Assembly (NCBI RefSeq): GCF_011492945.1
Contig: NZ_CP045119.1
Span: 434,001 to 498,000, forward strand
DNA from: Rubrobacter tropicus
GTDB taxonomy: Bacteria > Actinomycetota > Rubrobacteria > Rubrobacterales > Rubrobacteraceae
DNA length: 64,000 nt
Reading direction: 5' to 3'
Numbering within the stretch: position 1 is the first letter of the stretch; every line of letters begins with the position of its first letter. Positions 9,761-16,649 of the stretch are shown here, in pieces. Made by a program: the position numbers and the translations under genes. The notes beneath the pieces are model-generated. The model was given only the letters and a program-made list of their open reading frames with translations. It was not told the DNA's origin and did no database searches.

Positions 9761-10516
9761 ATGGCTACTACTACGAACATTGACAAGATGACCCGCACTG
9801 CGCGGGAGATGACGGAGGCCCAGCGGGATTCTTACGAGGCCCTCGCGGAGAGCTTTACCGCCTCCCAGCGTCGGAGCGCCAGGCTGGCCCAGGACGGGCT
9901 CAAGTTCTTCAAGCTCCAGGAGGACAATGCCAGGGCGGCGCAGGAGTGGTTCGCCAACGGCGTGCGCCTGATGCAGCTCCAGCAGCGCAACGTCAGCTTT
10001 GCCCAGGACTGGTTTGGCGGCGGCGTCGAGGCCCTGCGGGACCAGGCGGAGCAGAACCTCCGCACGGCGGACGTCTTCGCGCGCAGCGCCCGCAAGCAGC
10101 AGGAAGGTCTACAGGCGCTCGGCCGCGAGTGGGTGGGGGCCTACCGTAACTTTTTCTCCCCCTTCGCCTACGCCCGGGAAGGCCTGAGGACCGCCCAGAA
10201 GGCCACCGAGCAGGGGATCCAGGCCACCCAGCAGGTCGCCCAGCAGGGTCTGCGGGTTGCCGAAGAGACGGCCGGACAGACCGAGAAGGTTCTTCGGGAG
10301 ACCGTCGAGGCCACCCGTGAGGCCGAGCTCAGGACTGCCGTCTACGGCGCCCTCAAGACCCAGAGCTATGAGGATCTCAACGTCGACGAGGTCTCCAAGA
10401 GGCTCGACGGCCTCTCCGCCGGGCAGCTCAAGCAGGTGCGGGAGTTCGAGAAAAAGAACAAGAACCGCGAGACCCTCATCGAGCAGATCGACCGCAAGAT
10501 AAAGGCCGCCTCGTAG
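9761..10516 (+). CDS. Phasin-like coiled-coil protein with C-terminal helical module
   Basis: This 251-residue, almost wholly helical protein is rich in Gln, Ala, Glu and Arg. Residues about 20-190 resemble phasins, which coat polyhydroxyalkanoate granules (YEALAESFTASQRRSARLAQ, FFSPFAY, long amphipathic heptads). Residues about 200-251 form a separate charged module (YEDLNVDEVSKRLDGL...VREFEKKNKNRETLIEQIDRKI) that I recall as a stand-alone tail in other actinobacterial proteins. No PHA synthase gene is nearby, so the granule role is only a family inference. A strong terminator follows the gene. Confidence 0.75.
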   Translation: MATTTNIDKMTRTAREMTEAQRDSYEALAESFTASQRRSARLAQDGLKFFKLQEDNARAAQEWFANGVRLMQLQQRNVSFAQDWFGGGVEALRDQAEQNLRTADVFARSARKQQEGLQALGREWVGAYRNFFSPFAYAREGLRTAQKATEQGIQATQQVAQQGLRVAEETAGQTEKVLRETVEATREAELRTAVYGALKTQSYEDLNVDEVSKRLDGLSAGQLKQVREFEKKNKNRETLIEQIDRKIKAAS

Positions 10517-10612: not shown

Positions 10613-10724
10613 AGAGCGGTCAGCTATCAGGCCGCTCCGGCTTCGCCTTCGCTCTCGGCCTTCAGTTTTTTGTCTTTGGCTGAAAGCCGACCGGCTGACA
10701 GCTAATAGCCTCGCAAACCGCTCT
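10613..10724. repeat. Intergenic palindromic repeat, copy B
   Basis: This is the most complete copy: the ends AGAGCGGT and ACCGCTCT form terminal inverted repeats around the shared core (GCTCCGGCTTCGCCT and AAAGCCGACCGGCTGA). It ends within the stop codon of the DsbA-diadenylate cyclase gene, so it also forms the 3' end of that operon. Confidence 0.75.
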
Positions 10725-11832
10725 AACGCCCGGGATACGGCCCGTAGCCGCGGAGCATCCACACCTCGGGCACGACCTCGGCGACGACGCCGCCTTCGTC
10801 GAACACCCTGACGGTCGAGCTCTCGGAGACGGCGACGGCCACTGTTCCCGTGTTTCTCGAGATGGAGGCCGCCGCCATGTGGCGGCTCCCGAGGCCGAGG
10901 GGGATGTCCAGGTTCCGCGAGGCCGCGTCGAGGTAGCGGGCCGCCGAGACGACGACGCCACCGTCGGAGACCACGAAGGCGCCGTCGAGCTGGGCGAGCT
11001 CCTTTATGGTTTCGCGCATGTCGGGGTCCTTGACGCGTTTCTTGTCGTCCGGGTGGCCGGTGAGGGGGTCGAGGATGAGGGGCCTGGACCTGACCAGGAC
11101 CTCCTCGTGGTCGCCGACGGTGAACAACGTCCCGATCTTGCGCCCCTCCCGGCCCTCCCGCGCTATCTCGACCGCGAGCTCGACCACCTTCTTGAGCGTT
11201 CTGTTGTCGACGCCCCTCTCCTCGGAGCAGATCTCGGCGATAGGGTCGTCCAACCCGTCCAACAGGCTCCCCGGCCCGACGCGCCGAACCGCGCGGTCCT
11301 CCCCTCCGTCAGGGCGGTCAAGCTCCCCCTCGACCGCTTCGAGCAGAGCCTCGAACTCCAGGGGGCCGTTGTACGGAGCGCCGTTGAGGAAGACGCCCGG
11401 CGTGCCGCGCACGCCGCTACGTTCTCCCGCGAGGCGGTTCTCCTGGACCCGTTCGGCGTGGCGGTGCTCCGCGAGGTCCCCGTCGAAGCGCGCGAGGTCG
11501 AGCTTTAGCCTCACCGCGTAGGAGCGCAGGTCCCCGTCGGACAGGTCATCCTGGTTCTCGTAGAGTAGGCCGTGCATGGGCCAGAAGGCGCCCTGCGCTC
11601 CGGCCGCCTCTGCCGCCTCGGCCGCGCGCCTGGCGAGTGGATGGACGGAGTCGAGCGGGTAGTGGCGGAAGACGAGGCGCACCTTCCCGTCGGACCTCTC
11701 GACGAGGTCTTCGAGGACGGGCCTGGCTTTGGCGCAATAAGGGCACTGGTAGTCCCCGTACTCGACGAGCGTCACCGGCGCGTCGGCCGGCCCTATTGCG
11801 TGGTCTCCACCCTTCGTCTCTGCCACCGTCAT
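10723..11832 (-). CDS. DsbA-like thioredoxin fused to a diadenylate cyclase (DAC/DisA_N) domain
   Basis: This 369-residue protein has two domains in one uninterrupted frame. Residues about 10-175 are a DsbA/thioredoxin_4 fold with active site C30-P-Y-C33 and cis-proline loop T144-P145; no signal peptide is present, so it should be cytoplasmic. Residues about 185-369 are a DAC domain like the archaeal DacZ group: VEIAREGREGRKIGTLFTVGD, the catalytic D283-G-A and the ATP-binding GSRHMAAAS (315-323), where Met replaces the usual third Arg of RHR. It should make cyclic di-AMP if the Met is tolerated. It is the last gene of the trxA operon and its ATG overlaps the EamA stop. Redox control of c-di-AMP synthesis is the obvious inference. 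Confidence 0.88.
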   Translation of the reverse strand: MTVAETKGGDHAIGPADAPVTLVEYGDYQCPYCAKARPVLEDLVERSDGKVRLVFRHYPLDSVHPLARRAAEAAEAAGAQGAFWPMHGLLYENQDDLSDGDLRSYAVRLKLDLARFDGDLAEHRHAERVQENRLAGERSGVRGTPGVFLNGAPYNGPLEFEALLEAVEGELDRPDGGEDRAVRRVGPGSLLDGLDDPIAEICSEERGVDNRTLKKVVELAVEIAREGREGRKIGTLFTVGDHEEVLVRSRPLILDPLTGHPDDKKRVKDPDMRETIKELAQLDGAFVVSDGGVVVSAARYLDAASRNLDIPLGLGSRHMAAASISRNTGTVAVAVSESSTVRVFDEGGVVAEVVPEVWMLRGYGPYPGR

Positions 11833-12803
11833 CTTTCCTCCGTCCTGAGGTCCGTATCTTGCAGGGTCTTGTCTCCCGACCTACCGAGGGCGTAGATGGC
11901 CGCCCAGAGCAGGAAGAACCCGACTACCTGCCCTGCGTTGATCCCCACGCCCAGCAACGCCCAGTTCAGGGCGACCGCGGTCGCCGGGAAGGCGAGCTCC
12001 GCGAGCGTCGCGTGCGAGGCCCTCGTCGAGGAGAGGCCACGATAATACAGCAGGAGGCCCAAAAGACCCGGGATCAGGGCCAGCAGGACCAGCCTCCCCG
12101 GCTGGGACCCGAAGCCCGCGCCAAGCTCTCCGAACGCCCCCTGGGCCAGCGCTATAACCGTCAGGGGCGCGAGGGCGAGCAACAGCCGGGCGCCGGTCAG
12201 GGCGTGGAAGGGGACGTCCCGCAAGACGAACCTCCCGAGCGCCGTCGAAGAACCCCACAGCGCCGCTGCCCCCACCGCGAGCAAGGCCCCCGACGCCGCC
12301 TCCGAGCCGAGCGCTGCGAAGGGGCTCAGGTTTCCGAAGGAGACCAGGTAAGCCCCGACGATGGCCGCGGCGAAGAGCGGCCAGTAGGCGGGCTTCAGGC
12401 GTTCCCCAAGGACGAGGTGAGCCGCCCCGATCGCGAAGAGCGGCTGCGTCTTTTGCAGGAGTATGGCGACCGTGGGATCTCCCGCCGCGAACGCCGCCGT
12501 AAAGAGCAGCGTGGCCAGCGCCGACCCGCCCCACCCGATGACCAGCAAGGCGCCCCAGCCCCTGACGCCGAGCCTTCCAAGCGCGCCCCATCCGAGCGCC
12601 ACGGCCGGGACGGAGTAGAGCAGCAGGATCAGGTGCTCCCCAAGCACGATGGCCGCGGGCGACATCTCCCCGAGCAGGGGCACCCGCAGCACCCCGTCCG
12701 TACCCCACAGCGCCGCCCCGAGGGCGACCAGCAGCACGCCTGCGCCGACGCCTGCCCTGCCGGAATAATTCGCGTGCCAGTGGCGGGCGATCCGGGCGGG
12801 CAT
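11829..12803 (-). CDS. EamA/DMT-superfamily transporter
   Basis: This is a 324-residue membrane protein with about ten hydrophobic segments in two EamA repeats (first around ALWGTDGVLRVPLL to FAIGAAHLVLGERLKP, second from ALWGSSTALGRFVL to AELAFPATAVALNW). Members export amino acids, metabolites or drugs; the substrate here cannot be read from sequence. It starts one base after the DUF2255 gene ends and overlaps the DsbA-DAC gene by ATGA, so it belongs to the trxA operon. Confidence 0.9.
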   Translation of the reverse strand: MPARIARHWHANYSGRAGVGAGVLLVALGAALWGTDGVLRVPLLGEMSPAAIVLGEHLILLLYSVPAVALGWGALGRLGVRGWGALLVIGWGGSALATLLFTAAFAAGDPTVAILLQKTQPLFAIGAAHLVLGERLKPAYWPLFAAAIVGAYLVSFGNLSPFAALGSEAASGALLAVGAAALWGSSTALGRFVLRDVPFHALTGARLLLALAPLTVIALAQGAFGELGAGFGSQPGRLVLLALIPGLLGLLLYYRGLSSTRASHATLAELAFPATAVALNWALLGVGINAGQVVGFFLLWAAIYALGRSGDKTLQDTDLRTEER

Positions 12804-13172
12804 CTACGCCGGGAGCAGCCTGAGCGTGGTCGGCAGGACCTCTTCCCGCAACATCGCCGCCGTCGGGCCGGGGTACGAGGCCCCGTACTTATCTCGGTAG
12901 GCTGCGCTGACCTTCTCGATGGTCGCCGCGTCCGTCTCGGGCACGGCGCGCACCAAAATCCGCCTGTCGTCCACCCGGAGCGCCGCTTCCCGGTTCGCCG
13001 AGGCCTCGCGGTACCAGCGGCCCTTCTCGCCGCGCACGGAGCGCACGAAGACGGTGTCGTCGACGACGACGGCCCAGATCACGGCGCCGGGAGATCCGCC
13101 CCCGCCGGTCTCGACGCGGACCTCCTCGGCCTCGTCGAGCACCTCCAGCGTCTCCCTGTCGAACTTATCCAT
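12804..13172 (-). CDS. DUF2255 family protein
   Basis: This is a 122-residue protein of the DUF2255 family, a small split-barrel-like fold (VVDDTVFVRSVRGEKGRWYREA is the diagnostic stretch). The pattern resembles flavin- or F420-binding split barrels in which a substrate-facing WYR segment follows a VRS strand, but no cofactor is proven. Its ATG overlaps the nitroreductase 3' end by eight bases. It sits among flavin and NADP(H)/F420-type oxidoreductases, which suggests a redox role. Confidence 0.82.
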   Translation of the reverse strand: MDKFDRETLEVLDEAEEVRVETGGGGSPGAVIWAVVVDDTVFVRSVRGEKGRWYREASANREAALRVDDRRILVRAVPETDAATIEKVSAAYRDKYGASYPGPTAAMLREEVLPTTLRLLPA

Positions 13173-13698
13173 AACGCTCCTCGTGGACTATCTCCGAGAG
13201 CGGCTTGCGCGCCGGGGCCCCGCGCCCCCGACGGGCCTCCTCGTCCGGGTAGCCGAGGGAGATCGCGGTCCGCACCGTCCGTCCTGCCGGGATGCCGAGG
13301 AGCCTCTTTGCTTCCGCCCTCCCCTCCCGGACGAACCAGCCGATGCCGGAGCCGACGCCGTGGGCCCAGGCGGCGAGCATGATCCTCTCGCACAGCCGTC
13401 CCTCGTCGTAGGCTTCCTGCTCTTCCCGCTCCCCGGCCATGACGAGCACTATCCCGAGCGGCGCGTCCCTCAGGTGGCCCGCGTAACCTCTCACGCCGGC
13501 CAGGGCGTCGAGCGCCGCCCGGTCCCTGACCACGACGAGCTCCCAGGGTTGCCTGTTCGAGGCGCTGCCCGAGAGGCGGGCGACCTCCAGGACGTCGTCC
13601 ACGACCTCCCGCGGCACGGGCTCGTCTCTGAACTCTCGCACGGCCCGCAGCGAGCGCAGGAAGGAGGCGTGGTCACCCGGTTTTTCTCTCCCGGTCAC
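13165..13698 (-). CDS. Nitroreductase family protein
   Basis: This is a 177-residue FMN-dependent nitroreductase-like enzyme. The N-terminal RSLRAVREFRDEPVPREVVDDVLE and the SGSASNRQPWELVVV flavin-binding loop are typical, as is the AAWAHGVGSGIGWF helix. It starts at GTG 13698, nine bases after the F420/NADP reductase-like gene, and overlaps the DUF2255 gene by eight bases. It probably reduces quinone-like or nitro-aromatic substrates with NAD(P)H. Confidence 0.9.
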   Translation of the reverse strand: MTGREKPGDHASFLRSLRAVREFRDEPVPREVVDDVLEVARLSGSASNRQPWELVVVRDRAALDALAGVRGYAGHLRDAPLGIVLVMAGEREEQEAYDEGRLCERIMLAAWAHGVGSGIGWFVREGRAEAKRLLGIPAGRTVRTAISLGYPDEEARRGRGAPARKPLSEIVHEERYG

Positions 13699-13707
13699 CG
13701 CCCTACC

Positions 13708-14331
13708 TTAACCCATTTCGGCGAGCATCTCGCGGGCCTTCTCCGGCCCCATGGGGACGTTGTAGATGGGGGAGCCCGGCTCCTGTCTGCGGCTCCCGGC
13801 GAGCGTGCCCGTGTCCACGGGGGCGAAGCCTATCTCCTCGATCAGGCCGGAGACTACCCTCTTTGCCTCCCCGTCGTCCCCGGCCACAAAGACGACTTCC
13901 CGGTCCTCCAGCGGCGCGTCGGGACGGCCGTTGTCCCGCAGCCTCTCGTAGTAGATGGTGTTGAAGGCCTTTACGACGCGGGCCCCCGGGAGGTGCCTCT
14001 GGACCAATTCGCTGGACGCCAGCCCATCGTGGTCTATCTCCCCGTCGCGCCCGGGGTAGTAGTTGGACGCGGTCACGAAGATCTTGCCCGCGAGCCCTCC
14101 GGCCGGCAAGCTTTCGTAGAGCCCGAAGGGGATGGCCTCCATCACGACGTCCCCGAACCCGGCCGCCTCCTCGACGGTGGCGGCGCGGGCGTTTGGCCCG
14201 ATCCCCCGGACCAGCTCGCCCAACGTCTCTGGCCCGCGCGAGTTGCTGACGGCTACCCTGTGGCCGGCCGCCGCGAACAGCTTCGCCGCGTTGGCGCCGA
14301 TGTTGCCCGATCCTATGACCCCGATGTTCAC
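13708..14331 (-). CDS. NADP/F420 oxidoreductase-like Rossmann protein
   Basis: This is a 207-residue protein of the Fno/COG2085 family. The N-terminus has the dinucleotide fold (IGVIGSGNIGANAAKLFAAAGHRVAVSNSRGPETL), where SNSRGP is the usual loop for the NADP phosphate. Later motifs are VVKAFNTIYYERL and FVAGDDGEAKRVV. It may pass hydride between NADPH and F420, but many family members do not use F420. It starts at GTG 14331, overlapping the stop of the 40-aa gene (GTGA). Confidence 0.85.
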   Translation of the reverse strand: MNIGVIGSGNIGANAAKLFAAAGHRVAVSNSRGPETLGELVRGIGPNARAATVEEAAGFGDVVMEAIPFGLYESLPAGGLAGKIFVTASNYYPGRDGEIDHDGLASSELVQRHLPGARVVKAFNTIYYERLRDNGRPDAPLEDREVVFVAGDDGEAKRVVSGLIEEIGFAPVDTGTLAGSRRQEPGSPIYNVPMGPEKAREMLAEMG

Positions 14332-14450
14332 TTTTCTTTTTTCTCGGGCTCTTCCCGATCTTCGAGGTACAGGACCGGGTCTTCCGTGGGATCCGGGCCG
14401 TTCTCGTCGGTCTCGCGGCCAAAGAGGCGTCTTGCCTCGGCCCGCGTCAC
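14328..14450 (-). CDS. Small acidic protein between trxA and the reductase gene
   Basis: This is a 40-residue frame beginning at GTG 14450 and ending at TGA 14328. Both ends are coupled: its GTG overlaps the trxA stop (GTGA) and its stop overlaps the GTG of the next gene (GTGA again). The product begins TRAEARRLFGRETDENG and is acidic in the middle and lysine-rich at the end (EEPEKKEK). I do not recognise it. The double GTGA overlap is strong evidence that it is translated, either as a small partner of thioredoxin or as a coupling device. Confidence 0.65.
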   Translation of the reverse strand: MTRAEARRLFGRETDENGPDPTEDPVLYLEDREEPEKKEK

Positions 14451-14785
14451 GCCCGCGCCCCGTCTAGCGCCTCGTCGAGCTGGGCCTCTATGCGGGCCTT
14501 CGGCAACGCGCCGACGACGCGCCCCACCTCTTCGCCGTCCCTGAAGACTAGCAGCGTCGGGATCGAGTTCACCCCGTAGCGCATCGCCACATCCGGGTTC
14601 TCGTCCACGTTGAGCTTGAAGACGCTCAAGCTGTCGGCCCTCTCCGTGGAGATCTCATCGACTATGGGACCCACCTTGCGGCAGGGACCGCACCACGCGG
14701 CCCACAGGTCCACCAGCACCGGCTTCTCAGACCCCAGAACCTCAGCGTCCCAACCCGCCGTTCCAACCTGCCTCACCTCGGACAT
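14447..14785 (-). CDS. trxA: Thioredoxin
   Basis: This is a 112-residue thioredoxin with active site WCGPC, the buried Asp region (VLVDLWAAWCGPC), and the cis-proline motif SIPTLLVF. It reduces protein disulfides in the cytoplasm. ATG 14785 has AGGAGCGG upstream. It is the first gene of a seven-gene operon that ends in the DsbA-diadenylate cyclase fusion. The promoter region is shared with a divergent ArsR regulator whose likely operator lies 63 bp upstream. Confidence 0.95.
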   Translation of the reverse strand: MSEVRQVGTAGWDAEVLGSEKPVLVDLWAAWCGPCRKVGPIVDEISTERADSLSVFKLNVDENPDVAMRYGVNSIPTLLVFRDGEEVGRVVGALPKARIEAQLDEALDGARA

Positions 14786-14847: not shown

Positions 14848-14879
14848 ATAGTCAAACAATCGCTTGTGTGTTTGACTAT
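14848..14879. promoter_or_regulatory. Perfect inverted repeat, likely ArsR-family operator
   Basis: The arms ATAGTCAAACA and TGTTTGACTAT are perfect 11-bp inverted repeats with a 10-bp spacer, between trxA (minus) and the ArsR gene (plus). The position and size match operators of winged-helix ArsR/SmtB repressors and would control both directions. Confidence 0.75.
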
Positions 14880-14915
14880 TTGACCGAGACGGGTGTGAGA
14901 AGTAAGATAGGTTTC

Positions 14916-15212
14916 ATGGTGGAGAATGCGGGACAAGGCAGGCGGGGGGTGGATCTCGAGCGTCGGGCGAAGGTTTTCGCGGCGCTTTCGGACCCGAACC
15001 GGTTGAGGATCGTGGAACTGCTCAGGGAGCGGGAGGAGTTGTGCGGCAAGGAGGTTGCGGGGGCTTTGGGTATAAGCCTCTCGCTCTACTCCCACCACGC
15101 CCGGGCGCTCAGGGAGGCCGGCATCATCACGCGCCGCAAAAGCGGGCAGACCGGGTATTGTTCCCTGGACCGGGAGCTGCTGGCGGACGCCCTGGGGCCC
15201 CTCAGCCGCTAG
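14916..15212 (+). CDS. ArsR-family transcriptional regulator
   Basis: This is a 98-residue winged-helix regulator. The helix-turn-helix (LREREELCGKEVAGALGISLSLYSHHARALREAGII) and the wing (RRKSGQTGYCSLDRE) are clear. Cysteines occur at ELCGKE and TGYCSLD, which could sense metal or redox state, but the classic ELCVCDL metal site is not complete. I prefer ATG 14916 over the GTG at 14868, because the latter lies inside the inverted repeat. It is divergent from the trxA redox operon, which it probably represses. Confidence 0.88.
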   Translation: MVENAGQGRRGVDLERRAKVFAALSDPNRLRIVELLREREELCGKEVAGALGISLSLYSHHARALREAGIITRRKSGQTGYCSLDRELLADALGPLSR

Positions 15213-15299: not shown

Positions 15300-16649
15300 A
15301 TCTTTACGACCGAACAACCGTCCGACAAGACGGAGAGGGAGCACGCCTACCCGGGCGACCTGGCGGCCTTCGTGCGGGAGCGGTGGGCAAGGTACCCGGA
15401 CGATACGGGGGACTCGGACGGCGGGGAGGGGGCGTTGCCGGAGGCGTCCGTGATGGAGGCTTTGCTTTCCACCTGTTACCAGGCGAGCCTCTTGCGCGAA
15501 GAAGAGCGGCCCGTGATCTTCCGCATGATCTTCGCCTCCCCCGAGGAGTTTCCGGAGGGCGATGGCCCGCCAGAAGGGCTGCACCGGCTTGAGTTCGACA
15601 AACCCCGCCCCTTCGACGAGCATGAGCTCAGGCGCCTCTCCCCGGCCGCCGACTTCGACCGGTCCCTGATCGGGGTCTCGCACGACGACGACGGGGACCT
15701 GAAGGTCTGGGGCGTCGTCCACTCCGGGCCGCGCTGGCTCAGGGGCGTGCAGGGCGGGCGGGAGCCTTCGGCGCCGCTGCCGCCCGTGCCGGTCGTCGAG
15801 GTAGAGGGCCCCGGGCGTCTGCAGGTGAGGAAAGGCTCCGTCTCCATCGCGGAGCTGGAGGCCGGCCGGCTCGGCGACTCGTACACCGACGTCTTCGCCA
15901 GCTGGTGGCTCCCCGAAATGTTCGCGCCCGTGCGGGCCGAGCTCGTGGAGCTCCACGAAGAGGCGCGTCGGGAGGCCGCCTCCGTCGAGGAGCCGTGGGC
16001 GCCGCTCGACCACGACCTCTCGCGCAAGGTGGCCCAGCAGATGTTCCGCAGGCTCGTCTCGACCGTGCGCGACGCGCGCCACGGGGGCACCATTATCATA
16101 GTCCCGCCGGAGAGGGCCGATGAGGTGCTCGCGGGCAGACGCGTCTCCCTCAAACACGCGTTCGTGGACGGCGAGCCCAGGCGGCGTTTTCGGACCCTGA
16201 TCGTGCGCATAATGAACCGCCTGGCCCAGTCCCACGGCAGGGGCGAGGAGGCGGCCTACCCGAGGGCGGTCGGGTGGGAGGAGTACGTCTGGAGCGAGGA
16301 CCGCGAGCTGGCCGAGCTCGACGAGGCGATCTTCGAGTTCGCCCACCTCGTCGCGGGCCTCGCCGCCGTCGACGGCGCCGTCGTGATGACCCGCCGCTTC
16401 GAGCTCCTGGGCTTCGGGGGTGAGATATCCGGCGAACTGGAGCCCGTCCAGACCGTCCGAAACGCCCTCGACCTCGAAGGCGAGAGCACCATAGAGGAAG
16501 GCACGCAAGGGGTCGGCACCCGGCACCGCTCCGCCTACCGCCTGGCGGGGTCTCTCCCGGACGTCCTGCTGGTCGTGATCTCCCAGGACGGCGACGCCCG
16601 CTTCGTCAGGGATAAAGACGGCGCGGTGACGTGCTGGGATCAGGCGTAG
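15300..16649 (+). CDS. DACNV-type DAC-like sensor domain protein, with non-standard start
   Basis: This protein of about 425-449 residues matches the DACNV family, a DAC-like sensor domain with a long N-terminal region. The C-terminal third holds VDGAVVMTRRFELLGFGGEI and GTRHRSAYRLAG, the DGA and RHR motifs of DAC domains, followed by VLLVVISQDGDARFV. The conserved N-terminal stretch (HAYPGDLAAFVRERW, then YQASLLREEERPVIFRM) begins upstream of the first standard start, GTG 15372. In that frame there is no ATG, GTG or TTG back to the stop at 15255, but ATC 15300 has a GGAGG six bases before it. I therefore propose ATC 15300; GTG 15372 is the fallback. Whether it makes or binds c-di-AMP is unknown. 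Confidence 0.75.
   Translation: MFTTEQPSDKTEREHAYPGDLAAFVRERWARYPDDTGDSDGGEGALPEASVMEALLSTCYQASLLREEERPVIFRMIFASPEEFPEGDGPPEGLHRLEFDKPRPFDEHELRRLSPAADFDRSLIGVSHDDDGDLKVWGVVHSGPRWLRGVQGGREPSAPLPPVPVVEVEGPGRLQVRKGSVSIAELEAGRLGDSYTDVFASWWLPEMFAPVRAELVELHEEARREAASVEEPWAPLDHDLSRKVAQQMFRRLVSTVRDARHGGTIIIVPPERADEVLAGRRVSLKHAFVDGEPRRRFRTLIVRIMNRLAQSHGRGEEAAYPRAVGWEEYVWSEDRELAELDEAIFEFAHLVAGLAAVDGAVVMTRRFELLGFGGEISGELEPVQTVRNALDLEGESTIEEGTQGVGTRHRSAYRLAGSLPDVLLVVISQDGDARFVRDKDGAVTCWDQA

Follow-up and report, generated by a model that had tools for sequence, protein, structure and literature searches.

A window of 64,000 nucleotides from the Rubrobacter tropicus genome contains a single open frame of 369 amino acids (10723..11832, minus strand), in which a DsbA-like thioredoxin fold is joined to a diadenylate cyclase (DAC) domain, and this raises the question of whether a cell could set its cyclic di-AMP (c-di-AMP) level by its redox state. 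To our knowledge, few of the signals that act on diadenylate cyclases have been identified. With its built-in disulfide enzyme and its single invariant thiol, such a cyclase turns the question into a precise and easily tested hypothesis, that redox state sets c-di-AMP, for which the solo paralogue, found both in this genome and in other genera of the family, would provide natural controls. The frame starts with ATG, preceded by the Shine-Dalgarno-like sequence GGACGGAGGAAAG (11833..11845, minus strand) containing GGAGG. An internal start yielding a separate DAC was rejected, since only TTG or GTG codons at residues 191, 194 and 216 are available near the junction and their use is unsupported.

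The N-terminal part of the protein, about residues 7-172 (residues 9-172 at 11317..11808, minus strand), was assigned to the DsbA-like thioredoxin-fold domains by Pfam, Foldseek and AlphaFold2. Thioredoxin_4 matched residues 7-168 (3e-26; 92.9 bits against a cut-off of 23.2) and DSBA matched residues 21-166 (1e-19, above its curated cut-off), while Foldseek retrieved BdbD and other DsbA-like structures. The CPYC motif was located at residues 30-33 (11734..11745, minus strand) in the alignment of five fusions, across which both this motif and the TP cis-proline loop (GTP, residues 143-145) are invariant. Read by eye, the N-terminus MTVAETKGGDHAIGPADAP shows no hydrophobic export signal of the kind that classical DsbA has. 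By this absence of a signal peptide the fusion protein is predicted to be soluble and cytosolic, in agreement with the first-pass annotation, which had called the DsbA-like domain cytoplasmic.

The DacZ-like DAC domain occupies about residues 196-365 (10738..11247, minus strand; Pfam and NCBIfam). The Pfam DAC family (PF02457) matched residues 224-347 (7e-19; 68 bits against a cut-off of 27), and the closest NCBIfam DAC model was that of archaeal DacZ (NF041371; residues 209-357, E 2.6e-41), whose whole-protein cut-off of 430 bits was not reached by the 141.7 bits of the fusion, which covers model positions 123-269 only. The PK_C-like domain of DacZ was not found at the N-terminus by Pfam or Foldseek, the DsbA-like domain being there. 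A profile of the DAC part matched the crystal structures of CdaA and DisA, and the DGA and GSRHM motifs claimed beforehand were located at residues 283-285 (10978..10986, minus strand) and 315-319 (10876..10890, minus strand). The reported catalytic landmarks of DAC enzymes, GALI, DGAhh, GxRHRxA and (V/I)SEE (PMC7288161), are all present in their DacZ forms. The RHM in place of RHR, which had been called odd, is neither an oddity nor a defect, as each of the family's solo DacZ-like DACs covering the site has GSRHM and Natrialba DacZ has GARHM; judged by these sequences, RHM is a trait of the DacZ-like subfamily and its usual motif.

The claim of an uninterrupted frame joining a CPYC thioredoxin fold to a DAC domain is thus borne out by the open reading frame, Pfam, AlphaFold2 and four further genomes, and only the bounds proposed for the domains (residues 10-175 and 185-369) had to be moved to those given above. 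Between them lies a variable linker of about residues 173-195 (11248..11316, minus strand) that is predicted to be disordered. Structure prediction, which had been recommended as a check, placed both domains with confidence and left the linker (about residues 177-195) at pLDDT <50 (AlphaFold2, 58-row alignment; mean pLDDT 84.8), and with a pTM of 0.53 the mutual placement of the domains, hence that of CPYC with respect to C202, is not fixed.

A search of 39 Rubrobacteraceae genomes revealed the fusion in five of the nine genomes of the genus (G000, which is that of the window, G001, G003, G004 and G005) and in none of the 30 family genomes outside it. The four relatives, namely the uncultured Rubrobacteraceae MAGs AVDCRST_MAG01, AVDCRST_MAG02 and AVDCRST_MAG03 and Rubrobacter sp. 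MGR_bin397, share the domain order and the gene order, and so the lack of conservation that the first-pass annotation would have taken as a sign of a chance join was not observed. Their proteins are 79-83% identical to that of the window, with both domains kept and the linker varying; the copies of G001 and G003 are cut by contig ends inside the DAC part, and the other members of the genus are mostly metagenome assemblies. Purifying selection acts on the DsbA part (dN/dS 0.12-0.24) and on the DAC part (0.10-0.18) alike; the linker, at 0.44-0.80 where a value could be computed, is relaxed. In the Rubrobacteraceae tree the three complete fusions group by their DAC parts into a single clade (support 100/100), which points to a single origin of the fusion. 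No fusion was seen among the matches listed for 396 genomes of the same phylum, for 301 genomes from the phylum to which an Anaerolineales genome belongs or for the PLSDB plasmids, where no record covered 80% of the query, and in a contig search with patterns inside the DsbA part the fusions among the 80 loci listed were those of the four relatives alone. G005 holds a further DAC piece with 89% identity to that of the window, which was not accepted as a real extra copy because it reaches a contig end and has the same neighbours; it probably represents a strain duplicate, the listed contamination of this MAG being 6%.

The fusion gene stands last in a minus-strand run composed of thioredoxin (14447..14785; Pfam), F420/NADP oxidoreductase-like (13708..14331; Pfam and NCBIfam), nitroreductase-family (13165..13698; Pfam), DUF2255 (12804..13172; Pfam) and EamA transporter (11829..12803) genes, the EamA gene overlapping the fusion by 4 nt, and the gene spacing suggests that the run is one transcript. 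Its earlier description as a redox-themed operon holds well, with the thioredoxin and F420/NADP genes in the neighbourhood of the fusion in all five fusion genomes and the nitroreductase in four; the EamA gene adjoins the fusion in all five and DUF2255 is found in three. Divergent from the run lies an ArsR-type regulator gene (14868..15212, plus strand; Pfam), adjoined by a gene (15372..16649, plus strand) for a second DAC-fold protein, in which a DACNV sensor domain precedes a divergent DAC. This 425-aa protein lies 3.5 kb from the fusion across the divergent promoter region, carries DGA (DGAVV) and TRHR (GTRHRSA) motifs in its C-terminal half, which bears a weak likeness to the CdaA fold (E 0.005), and is syntenic in G003 and G004 with homologues in other Rubrobacteraceae genera; a literature search on 'DACNV' found no paper. 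Convergent with the fusion is a gene for a 251-aa phasin-like helical protein without a Pfam match (9761-10516, plus strand), kept beside the fusion in G004 and G005.

Three cysteines are present in the fusion: C30 and C33, which belong to the CPYC motif, and Cys202 (C202; 11227..11229, minus strand), the sole cysteine outside it, 25 residues ahead of GREGRK. The latter can be followed in the solo DAC of Rubrobacteraceae, a protein of ~195 aa (e.g. L061:5082-5669) whose DAC is ~70% identical to that of the fusion and shares its motifs and invariant cysteine, but which is without the DsbA domain, ends in a C-terminal tail of ~15 residues absent in the fusion and sits in an unlike gene neighbourhood. 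An equivalent of C202 is present in the fusions and in all 27 family solo DACs covering the position. In 26 of the 27 no other cysteine was seen in the DAC frame, and no other residue is invariant among the first 19 positions aligned, the N-terminal segment being variable apart from it; in the alignment, haloarchaeal Natrialba DacZ has no cysteine there. C202 is a conserved candidate regulatory cysteine of the kind known from thiol-regulated enzymes, and a sole invariant cysteine in a presumably cytosolic enzyme is what one would expect of a thiol switch. It could alternatively have a structural role; it is older than the fusion, and since Rubrobacteraceae are low in cysteine, a single one stands out less than it seems to.

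Upstream of the solo DAC gene of G000, and reading the same way, lie a gene for a 553-aa response regulator-pyridine-nucleotide-disulfide oxidoreductase, thioredoxin-reductase-like by sequence, and three kinase-like genes; the one kinase-like gene scanned encodes cNMP-binding and HATPase domains, and the run (L061:5082-11585; G000:C1, ~1613080-1619585) also holds DUF924. The arrangement of oxidoreductase, two or three kinase genes and solo DAC is kept in six of 11 family genomes checked, and in the other five no such redox neighbour of the solo DAC was found. Considered with the gene run of the fusion, this implies that both versions of the DAC can adjoin disulfide chemistry. The DacZ genes of Natrialba and an Anaerolineales genome (L159 and L163) adjoin genes for MscS-like channels (by sequence), an arrangement reported for DacZ relatives (PMC6741144). 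Besides the fusion, two further frames of G000 pass the Pfam cut-off for DAC, that of the solo DacZ-like protein and one of 385 aa and DisA size. The genome also has DHH-DHHA1 matches, one of them in a frame of 329 aa, which equals c-di-AMP/pApA phosphodiesterases in size. A c-di-AMP riboswitch was found in three of the five fusion genomes and none in G000.

The best explanation of these observations, which we hold at about even confidence, is that the fusion would be a soluble cytosolic thiol-controlled DAC carrying its own thiol-disulfide oxidoreductase domain. In its most likely form, and with equally balanced chances, C202 would control the DAC, the tethered CPYC would make or break its disulfide or thiolated form, and thioredoxin or a small thiol would be the electron partner. 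Two DAC domains would pair and convert two ATP into c-di-AMP; C202, which lies just ahead of the first DAC helix, would alter pairing or activity once oxidised or thiolated; the tethered CPYC domain would form or break the C202 bond via disulfide exchange over the flexible linker, and would be recharged by the thioredoxin of the same gene run or by another cellular thiol. What the sequences show is the fusion itself, its conservation and selection, the motifs, the invariant lone cysteine and the neighbouring genes; from these we infer the enzyme activity of the fusion, the switch at C202, the direction of its effect and the electron partner.

A thiol-controlled DAC is favoured because the CPYC motif and the TP cis-proline loop are invariant in the five fusions, the DAC motifs are intact and the domain is homologous to the CdaA and DisA structures, purifying selection acts on both domains, no cysteine besides C202 lies outside CPYC and it recurs in 27 of 27 solo paralogues covering the position (as the sole one in 26), thioredoxin heads the run in each fusion genome, and the response regulator-disulfide oxidoreductase gene precedes the solo DAC in six of 11 genomes. 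Against it stand the confinement of the fusion to one genus, the five of 11 genomes whose solo DAC is without a redox neighbour, the possibly structural nature and greater age of the cysteine, and the unfixed placement of CPYC and C202 in the AlphaFold2 model. The redox-control link proposed by the first-pass annotation has gained the invariant lone DAC cysteine and the thioredoxin-reductase-like gene beside the solo DAC and is still conjectural, the sequence features suggesting that the cell sets c-di-AMP by redox state. Somewhat more tentatively, Rubrobacteraceae may make their c-di-AMP via a thiol-switched DacZ-like cyclase whose lone invariant cysteine reads redox, one genus having wired in its own oxidoreductase by fusion to give a direct redox-to-c-di-AMP converter.

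Relatives of the DsbA part are mainly small proteins of ~175-210 aa with CPxC, spread over many bacterial and archaeal phyla, and domains of this family also occur on NhaA antiporters, attached at one end or the other (NhaA and transporter fusions at L149, L150, L151, L157, L086 and L216) and joined to a haloarchaeal formate/nitrite transporter family protein. Among the relatives, one at G000:C1:67724-68257, with counterparts in many family genomes, has in-frame TGA codons, possibly marking selenoproteins of the Rcas_1661 (seleno)lipoprotein kind, and one in G004 (L064:3387-4187, minus strand) has CPYT for CPYC, with loss of the second active-site cysteine. c-di-AMP has an established role in potassium and osmolyte control, because of which the DAC would fit a theme loosely shared by the fusion partners, ion or osmotic homeostasis, and a redox input shared by ion and osmotic control is conceivable from the NhaA fusions. 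The same partners could also mean that the domain is a general accessory module, here a scaffold or docking module aiding DAC pairing or client access, with redox chemistry that has no effect on c-di-AMP output; oligomerisation is obligatory for DAC enzymes (PMC6741144, PMC7288161). We consider this rather unlikely, since all five fusions keep the CPYC and cis-proline that a pure scaffold does not need.

As both halves look intact in sequence, control might also run in reverse, with the DAC part binding ATP or c-di-AMP and tuning an oxidoreductase that acts on other cell proteins. This is improbable: the DGA and RH motifs of active relatives are retained in the DAC part, and the oxidoreductase takes the N-terminal site where DacZ has its presumed regulatory domain (PMC6741144). 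Two independent activities on one chain, for instance for co-expression and without cross-talk, would suit the flexible and fast-evolving linker; we find this no less improbable, as the fusion is intact in five genomes with both parts constrained, and the solo DAC paralogue likewise adjoins redox genes in several genomes. A chance or assembly join, conceivable for a fusion confined to one genus represented mostly by metagenome assemblies, is scarcely credible given five genomes with shared gene order, one clade and selection on both halves.

Overall, DAC and thioredoxin-fold domains are each known, no DAC-thioredoxin fusion was found in the literature searched, and their combination appears to be a new DAC architecture among that literature. 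With DacZ/CdaZ (DacY) (NF041371; Haloferax DacZ, PMC6741144) the putative thiol-controlled DAC shares the DAC subfamily, the DGA and RHM motifs, solubility and a presumed regulatory domain at the N-terminus; this domain is PK_C-like in DacZ and DsbA-like in the fusion, and C202 is missing in Natrialba DacZ. The NhaA-DsbA and DsbA-NhaA proteins (e.g. L149 and L086) carry a domain of the same Thioredoxin_4/DSBA family, ~50% identical and likewise fused to a partner in the cytosol, but that partner is a Na+/H+ antiporter and not a cyclase. SbtB, the cyanobacterial c-di-AMP receptor (PMC10117731), likewise couples a disulfide under thioredoxin control to signalling by adenyl nucleotides, c-di-AMP among them; it is unrelated to the fusion and works at the receptor, whereas the fusion would act at synthesis.
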